Source: Larkinella terrae (lineage in GTDB: Bacteria; Bacteroidota; Bacteroidia; Cytophagales; Spirosomataceae). From it: a stretch of DNA of 64,000 nucleotides. The notes under the pieces are model-generated. The model worked only from the letters and a program-made list of their open reading frames with translations. It searched no databases and was not told the DNA's origin. This document shows positions 23,761-62,632 of this stretch, one piece after another. A program made the translations under genes and the position numbers. Numbering within the stretch: position 1 is the first letter of the stretch; the number at the start of each line of letters is the position of its first letter. The stretch covers positions 434,001-498,000 of the forward strand of contig NZ_WJXZ01000006.1 in the NCBI RefSeq assembly GCF_009668025.1, in the 5' to 3' direction.

Positions 23761-24843
23761 ATGGCCACTATCTACACTCCCAAACAGCAACGCGTTCTAT
23801 TAATTGTCAGTCTGATTGTCATTGCCGGTTTTATTCTGGTTGGGTTGCGTCAATATACCATAGCCCTGCTGGGGTCCGGAATTATTTACGTCATTTTTCG
23901 TCCGTGGTTCACCAATCTGGTGCACAAGCGGAAATGGAACCGGCTGTTCGTCAGCATTTTACTAATCTTGTTTTCGGTTTTGGTGATCATCATGCCTTTT
24001 CTGGCTCTCAGTTTATTGTTGATCAACCGGATTCAGTATTATAGTCAGCACACGGAACAGATTCTTCAATTAATCGAAAAGCTTGAAAAAGCGACCGGTA
24101 TTCAGCTGACCAACCAGGCCAACATCAAAAATCTGGTGCAGCAAAGTGCCGGTTTTGCCAGCCGCCAGTTTCCGTCCATCCTGAGTGGAACGCTGGATGT
24201 GGTAATTTCGCTGGGGTTGCTGTACGTCGGTCTGTATTTCATTTTTATGGACGAGGAAAAGTTTTTGAAAGGATTACGGAAATACCTGCCGTTCGAAAAC
24301 GATACGCTGAATGAACTGGGCGAAGACCTGAAAAACATGGTGAATGCCAACGTGTTAGGCCAGGCCCTGGTGTCGCTGGTTCAGTCGGTGCTGACCGGTT
24401 TGACCCTCTGGATTTTTGGCGTTCCGGATGCGGCATTCTGGGGTACGGTGGCTTTCTTTTTTGCGTTTATCCCCATTCTGGGAACCCCGCTGGTGTGGGG
24501 ACCTGCTGGTATTCTGTTGATTTCGCAGGGAAATACCGGCAACGGAATCGGCATCCTGGTGGTTGGCGTGGTGGTAATTATCAACATCGACAACCTGCTT
24601 CGGGTCATGCTGGCCCGGCGGATGGGCGATGTGCACCCGTTTGTTACCCTGACGGGAATCGTGCTGGGCGTACCGGTTTTTGGTATTTTGGGATTGGTCA
24701 TCGGCCCGCTGCTGCTGGCCTATTTTATGGTGCTGTTTAAGGTTTTTGAGCGCCAGAATCGCAGGTTGCAACTGGAAGGCGTCAAACAGGAAGATGTCGT
24801 TGAAGAAAAAGCCGAACGGTCGGTGAAAGGCAGGTTAAAATAA
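23761..24843 (+). CDS. AI-2E family permease-like membrane protein
   Basis: 360 residues with seven or eight membrane segments in the AI-2E (PF01594) order: a helical pair at 12-48, a third helix at 61-88, a long soluble stretch (about 90-150), then GLLYVGLYFIFMDEEKF, a soluble loop, and a C-terminal bundle including IPILGTPLVWGPAGILLI and the PVFGILGLVIGPLLLAYFMV end. The family includes the AI-2 exporter TqsA and Na+/H+ antiporters, so the substrate is open. It ends next to a long hairpin. Confidence 0.92.
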   Translation: MATIYTPKQQRVLLIVSLIVIAGFILVGLRQYTIALLGSGIIYVIFRPWFTNLVHKRKWNRLFVSILLILFSVLVIIMPFLALSLLLINRIQYYSQHTEQILQLIEKLEKATGIQLTNQANIKNLVQQSAGFASRQFPSILSGTLDVVISLGLLYVGLYFIFMDEEKFLKGLRKYLPFENDTLNELGEDLKNMVNANVLGQALVSLVQSVLTGLTLWIFGVPDAAFWGTVAFFFAFIPILGTPLVWGPAGILLISQGNTGNGIGILVVGVVVIINIDNLLRVMLARRMGDVHPFVTLTGIVLGVPVFGILGLVIGPLLLAYFMVLFKVFERQNRRLQLEGVKQEDVVEEKAERSVKGRLK

Positions 24844-24851
24844 TCAATGTA

Positions 24852-24926
24852 AACTGATGAATGTCCAATGTAAAAGTAAAAAGCCATATTCAGGACATTC
24901 ACTTTTACATTGAACATTCATCAGTT
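24852..24926. repeat. Long inverted repeat after the AI-2E gene
   Basis: The arms 24852-24877 and 24901-24926 pair over 26 positions with one mismatch around a 23-nt loop. The arms are AT-rich and lack a GC core, unlike a standard terminator. It lies between convergent genes (AI-2E permease and DHFR-like protein), so it may serve both as a 3' end signal. Confidence 0.85.
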
Positions 24927-24939
24927 AATATTTATCATT

Positions 24940-25461
24940 CTATAATTTCCCTTTTTTTACATAATGCAGTTCCACCAAACCGCATTCGTATCCTTTGGTT
25001 TCGACAAACTGCCAGACATCCGGTTTTTGCGTTGGCTGAAACATCGGGATTCCTTGGCCCAAAATAATCGGATGAACAAAAATCTGGAGTTCGTCAATCA
25101 GGTCGGCTTCAAGTAGAATGGCGTTGATCTGGCCCCCGCCAACCAGAAAGATATCTTTCCCTTCCTGCTGTTTTAATTGTCTGACAAATTCCGCAACATC
25201 TTCCGAAATAAACTGCACGTACGGTGCTTCCGCAGCATCAGAATTTCGGGTGAAGACGTAATTGGTTTGATTTTTATACGGAAAATCGTCAAAACCGGCA
25301 ATCAATTTATACGTTTCGTTACCCATCAGCGTCGCATCGATGGTTTCCATAAACGCATTGTACCCAAATTCTCCTTCCGTAAATAACCAGTCAATTTCAC
25401 CGTTCGGCCCGGCAATATATGCATCTATACTGGTGGCGATGTACAATTTTACCTTTCTCAT
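24940..25461 (-). CDS. DHFR/RibD-C family protein
   Basis: 173 residues. The fold begins KVKLYIATSIDAYIAGPNGEIDWL, with DATLMGNETYKLI and the nucleotide-binding GKDIFLVGGGQINAILL later. This is the RibD C-terminal/dihydrofolate reductase-like family whose members in Bacteroidota are single-domain, about 170-180 residues, and of mostly untested substrate. NAD(P)H-dependent reduction is expected. It follows the AraC gene by 75 bases on the same strand. Confidence 0.92.
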   Translation of the reverse strand: MRKVKLYIATSIDAYIAGPNGEIDWLFTEGEFGYNAFMETIDATLMGNETYKLIAGFDDFPYKNQTNYVFTRNSDAAEAPYVQFISEDVAEFVRQLKQQEGKDIFLVGGGQINAILLEADLIDELQIFVHPIILGQGIPMFQPTQKPDVWQFVETKGYECGLVELHYVKKGKL

Positions 25462-28517: not shown

Positions 28518-28539
28518 AACTCGATTATGGATTTGTAGT

Positions 28540-28628
28540 TACGGTTTTCGGTTTACACCTTACAGTAGCTGACGCATCCGTGATTTCTGCTTGCGTCAGC
28601 CACCGTAAACTGTATACCGAAAACCGTA
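28540..28628. repeat. Two-part hairpin between the helicase and GH127 genes
   Basis: An outer 13-bp perfect stem (28540-28552 with 28616-28628) and an inner 9-bp perfect stem (GCTGACGCA at 28568-28576 with TGCGTCAGC at 28592-28600) share one axis. It fills the gap after the helicase stop. The outer stem is made from the abundant CGGTTTT/AAAACCG word. Confidence 0.8.
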
Positions 28629-28632
28629 TCTG

Positions 28633-31974: not shown

Positions 31975-31998
31975 ATCTTAAAGATACGAACATTGGAG

Positions 31999-32077
31999 TT
32001 GTATCGCTGAGTGAAGCGGAGGTGAAAAGAGTTAAGCGGAGTTAATTTAATTTTCTTCGCTTCACTCAGCGATACAA
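31999..32077. repeat. Decamer-type inverted repeat between the OMP and helicase genes
   Basis: Perfect 20-bp arms (31999-32018 and 32058-32077) surround a 39-nt loop. From 32002 the DNA reads as successive 10-base units that end in GAG (units starting 32002, 32012, 32022, 32032), for example TGAAGCGGAG and TTAAGCGGAG. It lies just beyond the outer-membrane protein stop and probably ends that transcript. Confidence 0.9.
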
Positions 32078-32083
32078 AAAAAC

Positions 32084-35672: not shown

Positions 35673-35728
35673 TTGACGATTGACCGCTGACGATCGACCA
35701 TGGTCAATGGTCAGCGGTCAATCGTCAA
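35673..35728. repeat. Heptamer-type inverted repeat between hisG and hisD
   Basis: A loopless 56-bp dyad centred on CCATGG at 35698-35703: the 28-base arms match at 26 positions. Each arm is a row of 7-base units such as TGACGAT, TGACCGC and CGACCAT. It fills nearly all the gap between hisG and hisD. It belongs to a family with copies near 43.6 and 49.2 kb. Confidence 0.9.
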
Positions 35729-42754: not shown

Positions 42755-43546
42755 ATGGCCTTTACTCCCGAACATCTCGAAATTTACCAGCGTGACGGCT
42801 ACGTTGTCGTTCGCAATCTTTTCTCCAAAGCTGAAGTAGAACGGCTCTACGGGCTGGCCGTTGGCGATGCGGTTCTAACCACAAAAACCTACGACCGGGT
42901 CGATGCGTCGGGAATGAAAACCCGGCTGGCGCTCTGGTATGCGCTGGACGACAGCCTGTACAGCAAATTTGCCCGGTCGTCGCGCATTGTGGATGGGGTA
43001 GAGCAGATTCTGGGTAGTCGGGCCGCCCACTACCACTCCAAGCTGATGCAGAAAGAACCGCGAACGGGCGGAGCCTGGGAGTGGCATCAGGATTACGGAT
43101 ACTGGTACAAAAACAACGGTTTTCTGTTTCCCGATATGCTTTCGGTGCTGACGGCGCTGACGCCCGCGACCAAGGAAAACGGCTGCTTGCAGATGATAAA
43201 AGGATCGCACAAGATGGGCCGGGTCGAGCACGGTTTTTCGGGCGAGCAGGTCGGGGCCGATCTGGAAAAGGTAAACGAAGCCCTGAAGATCATGCCACTG
43301 GAGTACCTGGAAATGGAACCCGGCGACACGGCTTTTTTCCACTGCAATACCCTCCACGCTTCAGCCGCCAATTTGTCGGATCAACCCCGCTGGTCGATCA
43401 TTACCGCGTATAATCTGGCCAGCAATAAACCGTACAAGGACATTCACGAAAGCAGTTACACGCCCATCGACTATTACGACGGCGATCTGCTGGCTGAAGA
43501 AGAAGCCGGTATTTCAGAAACCGCAGATTTTTTGGTGAAGAGATGA
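42755..43546 (+). CDS. Phytanoyl-CoA dioxygenase family protein
   Basis: 263 residues. The Fe(II)/2-oxoglutarate facial triad is visible: H and D in WEWHQDYGYWY, a later H in FFHCNTLHASAANLSD, and the arginine for 2-oxoglutarate in QPRWSIITAYN. No signal peptide is present, so it works in the cytoplasm. Such PhyH proteins hydroxylate small substrates. It sits between the two isomerase-like genes, so it probably acts in the same sugar route. Its TGA stop at 43544-43546 starts the heptamer repeat that follows. Confidence 0.9.
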   Translation: MAFTPEHLEIYQRDGYVVVRNLFSKAEVERLYGLAVGDAVLTTKTYDRVDASGMKTRLALWYALDDSLYSKFARSSRIVDGVEQILGSRAAHYHSKLMQKEPRTGGAWEWHQDYGYWYKNNGFLFPDMLSVLTALTPATKENGCLQMIKGSHKMGRVEHGFSGEQVGADLEKVNEALKIMPLEYLEMEPGDTAFFHCNTLHASAANLSDQPRWSIITAYNLASNKPYKDIHESSYTPIDYYDGDLLAEEEAGISETADFLVKR

Positions 43547-43610
43547 CTAATGACGATTGACCATAGACCGCCGACCATGGTCAATGGTCAATCGTCAGCC
43601 GTCAATGGTC
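43544..43610. repeat. Heptamer-type inverted repeat after the PhyH gene
   Basis: Units of seven bases start at 43544 (TGACTAA), 43551 (TGACGAT), 43558 (TGACCAT), 43565 and 43572 (CGACCAT), then reverse after CCATGG (43575-43580) into GGTCA-type units up to 43610. The first unit includes the stop codon TGA of the PhyH gene. It is an imperfect dyad and a member of the 35.7 and 49.2 kb family. Confidence 0.85.
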
Positions 43611-43657
43611 AAAAAATCTTTACTCTCTAGTCTCACCTCCTTTGTCTATAAAAAATA

Positions 43658-49100: not shown

Positions 49101-49213
49101 TAACCGCGAAAGCCGGTGGCGCTCAAACCCAACGCCCGACCTTCCGTCGGCAACGGATGTTCCATTGCGAAGACGTGGAAGGCGTGATGGCGGAAGGGGA
49201 GGAGAGGAAATGA
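46163..49213 (+). CDS. Secreted tandem amidohydrolase-family protein
   Basis: 1016 residues with a signal peptide (MRKLLLTAVLAWGIAQVGWSQ). It carries two amidohydrolase units. In the first (about 25-430) the usual metal motif region reads YPGLVDIESDYGMP, without the HxH pair, so it should not bind the metal normally. In the second (about 565-980) the motif GIIDEHSHIALYS (H631 and H633) is intact, with later H in CHSYVQSE and D in INSDDAE. The last 30 residues are basic. It looks like one active domain and one decayed or structural domain. A smaller relative follows after a repeat, probably in the same transcript. Confidence 0.9.
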   Translation: MRKLLLTAVLAWGIAQVGWSQVTFPRNGVYDERSGLYAFTNATIIVDPKTTLDGATLLIRNGRIEAVGKTVSIPAGTVIADLKGKRIYPGLVDIESDYGMPALQRNASGGGRGAPQYDSNKKGAFNWNQAIQPETEASAVFKASVPQALELRKLGFGAVVTHPHDGIARGSSALVTLADDRENLVVIRERVAGHYSFSKGTSTQTYPNSPMGAVALLRQTYYDADWYKKAGKTAEANISLEAFNRLQSLPSVFEVPDKLGVLRADKIGEEFGVQYIIKSAGDEYQRLDEVKATGASLIVPLNFPQAFDVEDAWDADNVTLAEMKHWEMAPANPAMLAKAGVPFALTTANLRNKTDFWANLRKAIEYGLTEQQALTALTTTPAQLLKIDNEVGSLKPGLLANFIITSDNLFSADNVILENWIRGKQYIYGDKNATDLRGNYNLTIGDRSNLKLNIIGKPGKPEYQVLADTVKITPKISVSNDLLSIQLQLDKKQPGTTRLTGYRIDGPREGTILKGEGELPDGKMVKWTAVLSQPFAANAKPDTAKKTAPEYGKLLYPFVGMGNLEKPKAQTLLIRNATVWTNEKDGVIQNADVLVQNGKITQVGKSLTAPTGAQTIDGTGKHLTNGIIDEHSHIALYSINEGGQSSSAEVRMSDVVNSEDINIYRQLAGGVTTSQLLHGSANSIGGQSAIVKLKWGEAPQEMMLKGADGFIKFALGENVKQSNWGDAVRIRFPQTRMGVEQVYFDHFTRAREYDNAWKAYNALSAKEKAKTVPPRRDVELDALAEILNKKRFITCHSYVQSEINMLMKVADSLGFKVNTFTHILEGYKVADKMAKHGVGGSTFADWWAYKMEVKDAIPYNAALMARAGVTVSINSDDAEMARRLNQEAAKAVEYGGISEEDAWKMVTLNPAKLLHLDSKLGSIRAGKDADLVLWNNNPLAIYARPEKTIIDGTIYFDAQDEDRKHDELQKERARLIQKMLTAKAGGAQTQRPTFRRQRMFHCEDVEGVMAEGEERK

Positions 49214-49303
49214 CTATTGACGATTGACGATTGACCATCGACAGACGACAATGGTCGATCGTCATCGGTCAAATAATGGTCAATCGTCGGCGGTCAATGG
49301 TCA
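49211..49303. repeat. Heptamer-type inverted repeat between the amidohydrolase genes
   Basis: Seven-base units begin at 49211, 49218, 49225, 49232, 49239 and 49246 (TGACTAT, TGACGAT, TGACGAT, TGACCAT, CGACAGA, CGACAAT), then complementary units such as ATGGTCA run to 49303. The first unit contains the TGA stop of the upstream gene (49211-49213). It nearly fills the gap between the two amidohydrolase genes. Confidence 0.88.
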
Positions 49304-50673: not shown

Positions 50674-50869
50674 GCAGGCTTCGTAGGTTGGATTGCCGTT
50701 TAGGCAACAATGTGATTTGCGAGGTGCGTGTTTTGTATGGGTTATCGATAGTTGTTAGGCGTAAAGTGTTGATAGTGAGTTTTCTGTTAAGATCTCTTCC
50801 CAATCCCGTGTAGGGCACGGCTGATACGTGCTTGAATTATGATTATAAAAGTTGAAAAATTTCGACATC

Positions 50870-51030
50870 TTTTCGCCCCCAACCCCTAAAAGGGGACTAA
50901 AAAAACCGGATTTGAGAGCCCGGCACCGGCCGCCCGGCCTTTAGGGGGTTGGGGGGCGAAAAGAGGCCGGTACCCACAGAGTTTTACTAGCACTTAACAG
51001 CCTTACTATTTAGGGGGTTGGGGGCGAAAA
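50870..51030. repeat. C5AAC-type dyad with an extra arm
   Basis: The left arm 50870-50890 and the right arm 50940-50962 are complementary over about 20 bases (core CCCCCAACCCCTAAA against TTTAGGGGGTTGGGGG). A third copy of the right arm occurs at 51009-51030. A related perfect dyad lies at 54768-54835. The loop of the first dyad is GC-rich and contains CCGG-rich segments. Confidence 0.82.
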
Positions 51031-51142
51031 AAGCCCGAAAATTGTCACTGTTGTATGATAATCACTCGAGCATTTAAAATCCCTGCCCTTCATGGCGTTG
51101 GCCGAAAAATTTAGCCAGCCTCCGAAAGAAAATAAATTGCGA

Positions 51143-53638: not shown

Positions 53639-54721
53639 ATGAAATCAACACTAATTTTTGCACTGGCGATCTCGCTGCTGGGAGCGGTGCCACAACTTCA
53701 GAAAGAATCGGCGTTCGTCGTTTCGGGCGCAGAAAAACCGCTCGGGATTGAAAAGGATAAAAAGGTCTGGATGCTGACGTACTTCCGGCAACGGTATCCG
53801 ACCCGGATTGAGATCGATGCGCAGGGAAAAACCGTGGAGGTTCCGCTGGAAAACCCCATGCTGATCAATAAGTTACACATTGCCTTGTCCACCGATGGTC
53901 GGCACTGGACGCCGTTGAACGACAACAACCCGGTCTGGGAGCACCACATGCGTGATCCGTACGTTCGTCGGGGGCCGGACGGTCTTTGGCGAATTCTGTC
54001 AACCGGCGGAGGTGGCCGGAGCGATCGGGAAAAGGTGGGCCCGAGTTGTCTTTACGTCACCTCGAAAGACCTGATCCATTGGCAGGAGGAAGGGCAACTG
54101 GCTTTGATGAAAGACGTTCGGGACGAGTCGGGTGCGCTATCGCGAAATATCTGGGCGCCCGAATGGTTTTACGATGCCAAAACCGGTGACTATGTTTTGT
54201 TCTGGTCGTCGTCCTTCAAAGACGCGGGCTGGAAAGAGAGCCGACTTTGGTACAGCCGAACGCGCGACTGGAAGACGTTTACCCCGGCGAAAGTCCTGTT
54301 TAATCCGCCCTATTCGGTGATCGACGGCACCCTGCTGGAGCATAGCGGCACGTATTATCTCTTTCACAAGGAAGAAGAATTTGGGGTGAAAACCGGCGAA
54401 CGGCGCGCCATCCGCGTGGCTACCTCCAAGAATCTGGAAGGGCCTTACACGGTTGTTGAGGGCGATAGGAACCAGGGACAACTCGTTCCGGTCATCACCG
54501 AAGGCCCCACTGTCATGGAAGATCCCCGTCAATCCGGCTGGTTGTTGCTCTACGATTATTGCATGACGAACCGGTTTGGGGTTTCGTCCTCGCCTGATTT
54601 GATTCACTGGAAAGTCGAAGAGGACGTCAGTTTTCCGTCGGAAGCCCGGCACGGTTGCGTGTCGCTGCTAACGGCGGCCGAAGCAAAAACGTTGCAGGAT
54701 ACGTATCCGAGCAAAAAATAA
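53639..54721 (+). CDS. GH43-like secreted glycoside hydrolase
   Basis: About 360 residues from the ATG at 53639 (MKSTLIFALAISLLGAV, a signal-like start). Five-bladed propeller signs are present, and three acidic positions fit the GH43/GH32 clan: D in HHMRDPYVRRGPDG (general base), D in SVIDGTLLEH and E in ITEGPTVME (general acid). The aromatic NIWAPEWFYD segment is also typical. It should act on arabinan or xylan side chains in the periplasm. It is oddly linked to the VOC gene. Confidence 0.87.
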   Translation: MKSTLIFALAISLLGAVPQLQKESAFVVSGAEKPLGIEKDKKVWMLTYFRQRYPTRIEIDAQGKTVEVPLENPMLINKLHIALSTDGRHWTPLNDNNPVWEHHMRDPYVRRGPDGLWRILSTGGGGRSDREKVGPSCLYVTSKDLIHWQEEGQLALMKDVRDESGALSRNIWAPEWFYDAKTGDYVLFWSSSFKDAGWKESRLWYSRTRDWKTFTPAKVLFNPPYSVIDGTLLEHSGTYYLFHKEEEFGVKTGERRAIRVATSKNLEGPYTVVEGDRNQGQLVPVITEGPTVMEDPRQSGWLLLYDYCMTNRFGVSSSPDLIHWKVEEDVSFPSEARHGCVSLLTAAEAKTLQDTYPSKK

Positions 54722-54724
54722 AGG

Positions 54725-54890
54725 TTATTTCGCGGAGTTAAGAGACGGTCTAAAATTTATAATTTTCCTGCCCCCAACCCCCTAAAGGGGGCTTTAATCG
54801 GCATTTCAAAGCCCCCTTTAGGGGGTTGGGGGCAGACCGATGAAAGGGAAAATCTGAATTTTAGTCAGTCTCTTAACTCAACGAAACAAC
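54725..54890. repeat. Nested dyad: GC-rich element inside a decamer-type element
   Basis: The inner dyad 54768-54795 and 54808-54835 is perfect over 28 bp with a 12-nt loop, built of C5AAC5TAAAG5 words. Around it, 54725-54758 and 54857-54890 form a second imperfect dyad of about 34 bases related to the decamer family (TTTCGCGGAG and TTAAGAGACG). The whole lies between the GH43-like and DinB-like genes. Confidence 0.92.
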
Positions 54891-54928
54891 TTAAATTTCC
54901 AAAAATTAAATTGTAGACAACGCGCATC

Positions 54929-55498
54929 ATGAACGACTATTTATCCAGTGCCATCAAGCAATTTGAGTACTATAAAACGCTTGGCGAAAAGACGTTCGAC
55001 CAACTTTCCGACGAGCAATTGTTCTGGCAATTCAACCCGGAAAGCAACAGCGTGGCGACGATCGTCAAACACCTTTGGGGCAATATGCTGTCCCGCTGGA
55101 CCGACTTTCTGACGTCCGACGGCGAGAAAGAATGGCGGCAGCGGGATGCTGAATTTGACAACGACCTCAAAAACCGGGCGGACGTTTTAGCCAAATGGAA
55201 CGAAGGCTGGCAATGCCTGTTCAGCGCCCTGAACTCGCTCACCGAAGCGGATCTGGCAAAGGAAATCTACATCCGGAACATGGGACATACGGTTTTGGAA
55301 GCCATCAACCGGCAGCTGGCGCACTATCCCTACCACATCGGACAAATCGTTTACATCGGCAAAATGGCCTGTGACGCCCGCTGGAAGTCCCTATCGATTC
55401 CAAAGGGCAATTCGAGCGCCTACAATGCTGATAAGTTTTCGCAGCCAAAACGGAAGGAGCACTTTGCAGATGAGTTTATAAAGAAGGCAAAAGATTGA
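54929..55498 (+). CDS. DinB-like protein (DUF1572)
   Basis: 189 residues forming the DinB four-helix bundle: SAIKQFEYYKTLGEKTFDQL, then NPESNSVATIVKHLWGNMLSR with the metal-binding His, and LAHYPYHIGQIVYIGKM with the second His pair. DUF1572/DinB proteins are metal-binding and mostly of unknown activity, some acting as thiol transferases. It lies between the nested dyad and the decamer hairpin at 55510-55599. Confidence 0.92.
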   Translation: MNDYLSSAIKQFEYYKTLGEKTFDQLSDEQLFWQFNPESNSVATIVKHLWGNMLSRWTDFLTSDGEKEWRQRDAEFDNDLKNRADVLAKWNEGWQCLFSALNSLTEADLAKEIYIRNMGHTVLEAINRQLAHYPYHIGQIVYIGKMACDARWKSLSIPKGNSSAYNADKFSQPKRKEHFADEFIKKAKD

Positions 55499-55509
55499 AA
55501 AAAGAGTTA

Positions 55510-55599
55510 TTTCGCAGAGTTAAGCAGAGTTTAAAAGAGTCTAGCGGAGAAAACAAAAACTCTGCTTAACTCCTTTTTCCTCCGCTAAACTCTGCGAAA
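55510..55599. repeat. Decamer-type inverted repeat after the DinB-like gene
   Basis: Four 10-base units begin at 55510, 55520, 55530 and 55540 (for example TTTCGCAGAG and TTAAGCAGAG), each ending in GAG. The right half reads as 10-base units too on the opposite strand. Arms 55510-55529 and 55580-55599 match at 18 of 20; the alternative pairing of 55518-55532 with 55557-55571 is perfect over 15 bp. It lies 12 bases after the stop. Confidence 0.9.
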
Positions 55600-55616
55600 C
55601 AAAAACCGGGTAAACA

Positions 55617-55976
55617 ATGGAAATTGAAGAACACGAAGTGAAGGGCCACAAAATTGCGGAGGTGGTTTCCGATCAGGTTGTGGTGGCCAAGGTGGAAGAT
55701 GGTCTGGATTTACTCGGAAATTTATATTACCAGGGCTTCGATATGATTTTGATTCATGAAAAAAACATCACCCCGGCATTTTTCGATTTGAAAACCGGCA
55801 TTGCGGGCGAGATTCTGCAAAAGTTTTCCAATTACCGGGTTCGGCTGGCCATCATCGGCAATTTTGAACCCTATCAAAGCAAAAGCATTCGGGATTTCAT
55901 GTTCGAAAGCAATCAGGGTGGCCACATCAGTTTTGTTTCGTCGAAAGCCGAAGCGCTGGACAAATTGTCCCGCTAG
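55617..55976 (+). CDS. DUF4180-family protein
   Basis: 119 residues. The sequence fits the DUF4180 pattern: DGLDLLGNLYYQGFDMILIHE, then TPAFFDLKTGIAGEILQKFSNYRVRLAIIG and SIRDFMFESNQGGHISFVSS. It is a small STAS-like alpha/beta protein with unknown role. It follows the decamer hairpin and precedes an unrecognised gene by 79 bases. Confidence 0.92.
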   Translation: MEIEEHEVKGHKIAEVVSDQVVVAKVEDGLDLLGNLYYQGFDMILIHEKNITPAFFDLKTGIAGEILQKFSNYRVRLAIIGNFEPYQSKSIRDFMFESNQGGHISFVSSKAEALDKLSR

Positions 55977-56055
55977 GTTGATTTTCGGGCCGATAGTTTC
56001 CATGATCTTCCTGCTGCACGACTAACGAGTGCGACCAACTGACAAACGTTCAGCC

Positions 56056-56766
56056 ATGAACAACTACCTCGGCGGTTTTTTCCTGATCAAGCTAAAACCA
56101 TTCGATTGGTCCCCCATTCCCCTGGTGTATACCGGCAGCACCTGCATCAACGACAGTATGTTAGCTACCTGGTCGTATCGCTGGGTGAACGAACGGGTGG
56201 AGGAGACCAGGGCGGCCGAAGAATTATTGGGCTTGAATCCCGCCAAGGTGACCGCCATCCGGCACTGGACCGATCAAAAATTAACCGAGGGAAAGGTAGG
56301 CTACCACCAGGTCTTTCTGGATCTGAAAACCGCTCAGGAATACAGGCAGCGGTTTTTTGCCCATCTCGATGCAGTTAAACTGCTGGCGATTTATTTCGAC
56401 GAACCGGCGGCCGATGCGATCATTGAGGAGTTGAGGCCGAAAAGGGCCAATATGGGCGAATGTGGTCTGTATCAGATGCTTTCCCGAAAAGTGCCGGAAG
56501 CAGAAGACAATGATGAGACGACCATTGGTTACGATCTGGTCGGAATCGAACAGGGAGGAAGTTTTCATTCGTTTCACTGCCACGGCATTGGCCCGGAGCT
56601 GGTCCGGAAATTCGGGCTGACCTTGAATGAGTTTGGCTTATTTGACTACTGCGACGATTGGAAACCGGTATTGGATGCGTTTCAAAACGGCGAAATCGGG
56701 GCCGAACCCGTACCCTGGTTTGTCGCGAAAGTGAAACAGATTTCCGTTGAAAAAAAGGCAGGATGA
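56056..56766 (+). CDS. Hypothetical cytoplasmic protein
   Basis: About 236 residues from the ATG at 56056; an upstream GTG at 56029 is possible. There is no signal peptide or membrane segment. Recognisable features are acid-rich helices (WVNERVEETRAAEELLGLN), a YHQVFLDLKTAQEY strand-helix and a GGSFHSFHCHGIGPEL loop with three histidines and a cysteine, which could bind a metal. I do not recognise a family. A hairpin covers the stop codon region. Confidence 0.82.
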   Translation: MNNYLGGFFLIKLKPFDWSPIPLVYTGSTCINDSMLATWSYRWVNERVEETRAAEELLGLNPAKVTAIRHWTDQKLTEGKVGYHQVFLDLKTAQEYRQRFFAHLDAVKLLAIYFDEPAADAIIEELRPKRANMGECGLYQMLSRKVPEAEDNDETTIGYDLVGIEQGGSFHSFHCHGIGPELVRKFGLTLNEFGLFDYCDDWKPVLDAFQNGEIGAEPVPWFVAKVKQISVEKKAG

Positions 56767-56784
56767 CGCTTCGTCATCCTGCCT
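56756..56784. terminator. Bidirectional terminator between convergent genes
   Basis: AGGCAGGATGACG (56756-56768) and its complement (56772-56784) form a perfect 13-bp stem with the 3-nt loop CTT. It overlaps the stop codon of the upstream plus-strand gene. On the minus strand it is followed by TTTTTT, so it ends the SDR transcript well. Confidence 0.85.
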
Positions 56785-56790
56785 GAATGC

Positions 56791-57555
56791 TTACAAATTC
56801 ATGCCGCCCGACACCTCCATTCGCTGACCGTTGATCCAGCGGGCGTCTTCCGTACACAAAAAGGCCACTACTCCGCCGATATCGTCGGGTAATCCGGCGC
56901 GGCCCAAAGCCGTTACACCGGCCACGAACGCATTGACCTGTGCATTGTCGCGCACCGAACCTCCGCTGAAATCGGTTTCAATGGCCCCGGGAGCCACGGT
57001 ATTCACCGCAATGCCGCGCGCGCCGAGTTCTTTGGCCAGATAGCGGGTCAGGGTTTCAATAGCGCCTTTCATGGACGCGTAGGCCGAGGTGCCCGGAATC
57101 GTGAAGCGTGCCAAACCGGTCGAAATATTGATGATCCGCCCGCCGTCGTTGAGCCACGGCAATGATTTTTGGGTGAGGAAAAAGACACCTTTAAAATGGA
57201 TGTTCATCAGTTGGTCGAACTCGTCTTCGCTCGTTTCGGCAAAGGGTTTGTGAAGGCCAATTCCGGCGTTATTCACCAGAAAATCAAAATGATCCTTGCG
57301 AAATGTTTCGTGTAAAACCGCTGTTAGTTCGGTAATAAAACCGCCGAAACTTTTTACATCGCCGGTATTTAATTGCAGCGCTGCAGCTTTCTGACCGGTT
57401 TTTTCAATTTCGGCTACGACTGCCAGAGCGTCTTCTTTTTGGCTGTTATACGTCAGAATAACATCGATTCCTTTTTCGGCCAGACGCAGGGCCATGTTTT
57501 TTCCGAGTCCGCGACTGCCGCCCGTCACCAGGGCAATTTTACTTGAAGATTCCAT
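56791..57555 (-). CDS. Short-chain dehydrogenase/reductase
   Basis: About 254 residues from the ATG at 57553-57555. The cofactor site TGGSRGLGKNMAL is followed by NNAGIGLHKPF, the catalytic Ser in NISTGLARF, the YASMK motif in SAYASMKGAIETLTRY, and a C-terminal GQRMEVSGG ending. It should be NADP-dependent. It has its own promoter (57583-57590) just after an AraC gene, with two repeats that could be AraC sites. Confidence 0.94.
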   Translation of the reverse strand: MESSSKIALVTGGSRGLGKNMALRLAEKGIDVILTYNSQKEDALAVVAEIEKTGQKAAALQLNTGDVKSFGGFITELTAVLHETFRKDHFDFLVNNAGIGLHKPFAETSEDEFDQLMNIHFKGVFFLTQKSLPWLNDGGRIINISTGLARFTIPGTSAYASMKGAIETLTRYLAKELGARGIAVNTVAPGAIETDFSGGSVRDNAQVNAFVAGVTALGRAGLPDDIGGVVAFLCTEDARWINGQRMEVSGGMNL

Positions 57556-62531: not shown

Positions 62532-62541
62532 AATAGGTTTG

Positions 62542-62626
62542 TTTCGCAGAGTCAAGCGGAGTTTCACCGAGTTAAGCAGAGTTTCAATACTTCCTCAACT
62601 CGGTGAAACTCCGCTTAGCTTCGCGA
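62542..62626. repeat. Decamer-type inverted repeat between MscS and EEP genes
   Basis: Four 10-base units start at 62542, 62552, 62562 and 62572 (for example TCAAGCGGAG and TTAAGCAGAG). The arms 62554-62573 and 62597-62616 are perfectly complementary over 20 bp, and the longer arms match at about 30 of 35. It lies between convergent genes and ends 7 bases from the stop of the phosphodiesterase gene. Confidence 0.92.
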
Positions 62627-62632
62627 AATAAC

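Follow-up and report, generated by a model that had tools for sequence, protein, structure and literature searches.

Tandem-word hairpin repeats in Larkinella terrae share their arms with the flanks of a GxxExxY gene encoding a predicted PD-(D/E)XK nuclease

Among described bacterial repeat systems, the closest to the one reported here is REPIN/RAYT, in which short inverted doublets form hairpins and occupy intergenic positions in dozens of copies (Bertels and Rainey 2011, PMC3116915). The RAYT gene is single-copy, vertically inherited and flanked by the same repeats, and the repeats are absent where the gene is absent (PMC3116915). The dyads of Larkinella terrae likewise consist of two inverted units that form a hairpin and are present in many intergenic copies; a GxxExxY gene is flanked by the same repeats, is single-copy in the host and vertically inherited, and the one genome of the genus that lacks the gene lacks the repeats. 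In contrast to the RAYT, which is a Y1 HUH transposase (PF01797), the partner here is a predicted PD-(D/E)XK nuclease (PF13366). The arms are made up of four words of ~10 bp and carry no foot tag comparable to the GTAG/CGTC tag of the ~20-nt REP, and orthologous dyad sites differ in arm type, apparently through change in place. The dyad-GxxExxY system works like REPIN/RAYT but is not a member of it, because its partner is not Y1, the tag is absent and the flanks of the host RAYT genes are devoid of dyad words. Bacterial MITEs resemble the dyads in length (~90 bp), inverted ends and lack of coding capacity, whereas the dyads have tandem-word ends, no target-site duplication that could be found and a partner that is not a known transposase.

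The window (the whole 64,000-nucleotide stretch of DNA that was analysed) contains the dyad at 55510-55599, which is neighboured by an ORF that stops 11 nt before it (54929-55498) and another that lies 17 nt after it (55617-55976). The original prediction described four consecutive 10-base units ending in GAG, at 55510, 55520, 55530 and 55540, followed by a right half in 10-base steps on the other strand. The left units are borne out exactly and keep perfect 10-bp phase, and the right half follows the same plan from 55560, with the words CTCTGCTTAA, CTCCTTTTTC, CTCCGCTAAA and CTCTGCGAAA at 55560/70/80/90. Words 2 and 4 of the right arm are swapped relative to the left arm, which creates two alternative pairings; the outer one matches at 18/20, as had been proposed, and the inner one, previously given as 15/15, is an exact 16/16 (55517-55532 with 55557-55572). 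Pairing continues a few bases outward, as GTTA...YAA. The RNA fold of the dyad has an energy of -41.3 kcal/mol (z = -7.6 vs shuffles), and a search of Rfam returned 0 matches above the gathering score for 54000-57000. Three further sites in the window are assigned to the family, at 62542-62628, at 32002-32074 and, for a short split copy, at 54728 (Table 1, with outer bases).

Table 1. Coordinates of dyads and related features. Plain numbers are window positions; G000 is the host genome, and other G numbers denote compared genomes.
Feature	Position	Strand	Description
Full dyad	55506..55603	.	Two inverted arms, each of four 10-bp words; loop AAAACAAAAA; outer GTTA...CAA(A)
Left arm	55510..55549	+	Words TTTCGCAGAG TTAAGCAGAG TTTAAAAGAG TCTAGCGGAG at 55510, 55520, 55530, 55540
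Right arm	55560..55599	-	Read on the - strand: TTTCGCAGAG TTTAGCGGAG GAAAAAGGAG TTAAGCAGAG
Second dyad, same family	62538..62632	.	Between convergent genes, 10 nt behind a stop
Third dyad	31998..32078	.	Variant outer word TATCGCTGAG (TATCGC)
Probable short dyad	54724..54893	.	TTTCGCGGAGTTAA/CTCAACGAAA, split by a nested ~135-bp repeat
GxxExxY cassette	G000:C6:561327-561793		467 bp end to end; framed by dyad-type arms
Mini-hairpin GACGGGGCCGCCCGAGCGG sites	G006:C23:338746; G002 ortholog of G003:C11:1288688; window-site-C orthologs in G003/G006		

The check proposed with the original prediction was a comparison of the 10-base phase with shuffled DNA, and the phase survives it: GAG recurs four or more times in a row at 10-bp steps in 29 runs in 1.26 Mb of the host genome, compared with 0 in five first-order Markov shuffles, and each of the other periods from 4 to 16 yields 0-5 runs in the same 1.26 Mb. 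When the 20-mer arm TTTCGCNGAGTTNNGCNGAG was searched for across G000 (7.85 Mb) with up to 2 mismatches, 80+84 matches were obtained, vs 3+1 for the reversed 20-mer used as control. The host family comprises about 65-80 arms per strand, and ~80 copies of ~90 bp. A full copy follows the plan GTTR-TTTCGCRGAG-TTRAGCRGAG-(N)RGAG-TTAAGCRGAG, loop and then the inverse, with GTTR-TTTCGC as the arm foot in a column profile of 48 arms. The two arms of an element resemble each other only modestly more than permuted partners do (20.5 vs 20.0 of 25, sd 0.22). The strict 10-bp period characterises the genus of the host; relatives use steps of ~9-11 bp, so the proposed match to one helical turn is at most approximate.

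The repeat nested in the probable short dyad (TTTCGC type), at window 54738-54878 (GAGACGGTCTAAAA...CCCCCAACCCCCTAAAGGGGG...TTTTAGTCAGTCTC, with internal GCCCCCAACCCCCTAAAGGGGGC), is flanked by TTAA on both sides and is present in dozens of copies at 75-94% in the host genome; it looks like a separate MITE with a TTAA target.

The sole PF13366/TIGR04256 (GxxExxY) gene of the host sits between two four-word arms of the dyads' type. In ~2.5 Mb from four genomes, this cassette is the only pair of facing arms more than 130 bp apart and, loops aside, the gene is the only content found between facing arms. The gene is a clear member of the GxxExxY family (TIGR04256 / PF13366 PDDEXK_3; E 1.9e-43), with scores of 147.5 vs 35 bits and 138.6 vs 22 bits relative to the curated cut-offs. 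GxxExxY proteins have the invariant residues H, E, D-x9-E-x-K and QxxxY; the motifs of the framed protein include the catalytic triad (D...ExK) of PD-(D/E)XK enzymes, and its fold model (pLDDT 94.6) has their alpha-beta core. The nearest structure to the model is SSO0001 (Z 9.9, VIA-align), which we take to be a Cas4 protein, and archaeal Hjc aligns with Z 7.5. A sequence search of the PDB with the framed protein gave no match, and Foldseek with the model returned weak E-values only, the best being 9e-3 (Cas4, lambda exonuclease). The invariant motifs and the proximity of the model to SSO0001 lead us to assign the GxxExxY protein as a putative minimal PD-(D/E)XK nuclease of the RecB/Cas4 sort, presumably active as such. 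The fold and the motifs H, D, ExK and QxxxY recur in Cas4/RecB/lambda exonuclease-type nucleases and archaeal Hjc; in contrast to these, the framed protein is a stand-alone product of ~125 aa that is coded between hairpin arms, with neither a helicase nor a Cas partner.

Gene and repeats co-occur at several taxonomic levels. Within the genus, the gene is found in 8/9 genomes (truncated in G002), each with 51-166 TTTCGC arms, and G007, the only genome without the gene, has 0 arms of both types. Across the phylum, the gene is present in 151/296 sampled Bacteroidota genomes. An independent, related word pair, ACCRCARAGNNCRCARAG, tested in the same 296 genomes, occurs in 80/151 of those with the gene vs 7/145 of those without it (p=1.2e-21), amounting to 586 vs 11 copies, and the link holds within families (CMH odds ratio 10, chi2 17.5). 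The pair is absent from 71/151 gene-bearing genomes, partly because subfamilies differ in their arm words. Other GxxExxY subfamilies use other words, for example CGGATT or ACAGGATT (subfamily vs word type, Fisher p = 0.0007), and G005 contains a second subfamily with its own CGGATT-word arms.

The association extends to other phyla. At 75 named loci from Bacteroidota, Chloroflexota, Acidobacteriota, Verrucomicrobiota, Cyanobacteria and others, inward chains, with a minimum of two words directed towards the gene, are present upstream in 59% of cases and downstream in 76%, compared with 1.4% of distant windows, and the chains beside the gene never exceed four words. Dispersed word pairs can be numerous outside Bacteroidota, with 189 vs 5 for the reversed control in an Anaerolineae bacterium and 274 vs 10 in an Opitutaceae bacterium; 6 of the 15 genomes outside the phylum that were reached via named loci have no word excess. 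Taken with the framed gene, the hairpins suggest an unrecognised enzyme-driven repeat family in many bacterial phyla. A strict rule of one gene and one arm type fails: in G001 the arms at the gene are TTACACAG, yet most dispersed dyads are of the TTTCGC type, G004 has a mixed pattern of gene arms vs commonest dyads, and other-word dyads occur in a genome of the same family that has no gene (G016, below).

The gene occupies the same locus in all eight gene-bearing genomes of the genus and is inherited vertically in place; hopping of the gene-bearing element itself is rejected within the genus. The dispersed dyads, by comparison of sister species, turn over in arm type. Between G003 and G002, which are ~95% identical, 4/4 compared orthologous sites hold dyads of different arm type within flanks that are 89-98% identical; G003 and G006 keep the same arm type at both shared sites (2 sites). 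A parallel arm difference is seen at the gene locus: TTTCGC in G003/G006, but TTACACAG in G002, whose copy of the gene is now truncated. In this small sample, replacement in place would be the simpler account, because losses and gains would otherwise have had to coincide independently at four points, which is unlikely. Within the window, the site of the third dyad carries TATCGC in G008, TTTCGC in G003/G006 and a CGGATT-word dyad in G002, and the second dyad has a same-type counterpart in its G008 ortholog and none there in G002. A search of the orthologs for clean empty sites bearing target duplications found none; only site B in G002 is near empty.

Several dyads, from different species, have their words interrupted by an inserted GC-rich mini-hairpin of ~19-21 bp (Table 1).

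The original prediction had left a terminator, a protein-binding array and a mobile repeat as alternatives. The mobile (dispersed) repeat is the best supported, because there are ~80 copies, the arms are common to the nuclease cassette and arm types turn over at orthologous sites; a protein-binding array is compatible with the data. The dyad is probably a non-autonomous, REPIN-like hairpin repeat whose arms act as the recognition ends of the GxxExxY nuclease and which spreads by cutting and copying. The mechanism that we infer takes in-place replacement of arm types as its basis, with one hairpin being cut and recopied from another. The nuclease would bind the arms folded as a hairpin or cruciform, or as single-stranded DNA at the replication fork, and would cut at or near the hairpin. 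Repair of the break from another dyad copy would both spread the dyads and give hairpins already in place the resident nuclease's own arm type. Hairpins that landed behind a stop codon would be tolerated, or may even be useful as mRNA 3' end structures. More tentatively, GxxExxY nucleases and word hairpins could represent a separate, phylum-spanning class of selfish repeats, in which the Cas4-like nuclease would cut dyads, with dyads of its arm type then serving as templates for recopying; the nuclease would thereby home into hairpins, and an allele change would rewrite the hairpins genome-wide in place.

The association of GxxExxY with repeats is probably new, since the openly licensed papers searched give no account of it: none of them links the two, and none assigns a role to the gene family or to CGCAGAG/CACAGAG-type repeats. 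Both the repeats and the genes are very common, the gene being found also in Chloroflexota, Acidobacteriota, Verrucomicrobiota and others. The link gives a widespread gene family a testable job and points to a probable driver for a class of intergenic hairpins that had lacked an explanation, in what appears to be a convergent counterpart of REPIN/RAYT on an unrelated enzyme fold. In-place arm change, if driven by the enzyme, would add a new mode of concerted evolution for non-coding DNA.

G016, from the same family as the host, has 62 arms of ACAGGATT-word dyads (ACAGGATTNNCAGGAT arms; ~90 bp and well matched) and no detectable PF13366 gene, showing that the gene can be missing where such dyads exist or persist. 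It is possible that the gene has been lost from G016, leaving a relic population, or that another enzyme serves its word family. Together with the one fixed gene locus throughout the genus, these dyads would favour a passenger role for the GxxExxY gene, which would have been captured between arms or have landed between hairpins behind stop codons, with another enzyme or host recombination dispersing the dyads. We regard this as unlikely, given that gene and words co-occur across phyla, that 2.5 Mb of sequence yielded no second gene between such arms, and that the host's three Y1/RAYT genes are flanked by repeats of their own, without GAG words.

Dyads tend to sit immediately downstream of stop codons. 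By the gene calls of a simple home-made caller, 18/24 copies are no more than 20 nt downstream of one, compared with 4% by random intergenic placement (p = 3e-8), and a dyad often fills the whole of a short intergenic gap. The position of dyads 5-15 nt behind stops fits a role at mRNA 3' ends. This placement, the strong folding and the occupation of some of the same orthologous sites by other hairpin types argue for a purely host-functional, non-mobile family of 3' hairpins or terminators multiplied by selection or gene conversion. Such an origin is nonetheless improbable: there is no U tract, the sequence common to the copies goes far past what a hairpin needs, whole arm types are exchanged at sister-species sites, and G007, of the same genus, has none. 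A search around 55300-55800 for an intrinsic terminator (GC-rich stem followed by a U tract) found 0; the terminator reading in its classical intrinsic form is thus unsupported, because the U tract is lacking.

The enzyme-driven reading preferred here must also be set against known mobilisers. That the dyads are the REP/REPIN element of a Y1 tyrosine transposase (RAYT) is very unlikely, despite the likeness in size, hairpin form, intergenic placement and single-copy, vertically inherited partner (PMC3116915), and is already contradicted in the host genome, where 0/3 PF01797 genes are flanked by dyad arms and the gene that is so flanked encodes a predicted PD-(D/E)XK nuclease, not HUH/Y1. RAYT as the mobiliser was rejected on these flanks, which hold other repeats; the three Y1_Tnp/RAYT-like genes (L321, L322 and L323, at G000:C18:73571, C1:397119 and C6:1027899) have the flank repeats CGTCGCGTAGCGACG; CCCACGGTTTAAACCGTGGG; CCCCAGCGGGGTTGACTC. 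We likewise give hardly any credence to a MITE mobilised by a DDE or other transposase that is still undiscovered and has similar ends, which the inverted ends, ~90 bp length and ~80 copies would fit, since no gene but that of the GxxExxY cassette was found to have these ends, which are tandem words and not classical TIR, and no target-site duplication was seen or could be defined at the compared orthologous sites.

Other hairpin families are also present in the window. The hairpin repeats CCCCCAACCCC...GGGGGTTGGGGG at 50853-51047 have no GxxExxY link here. Long imperfect dyads of other word types lie at 24836-24942 and 28537-28631 (AATGTAAA-like; GGTTTTCGGTTTACAC), and dyads of 7-bp tandem words (TTGACGA/TTGACCA) with inverted arms, at 35673-35728, 43544-43611 and 49211-49303, form a separate word-based hairpin family.
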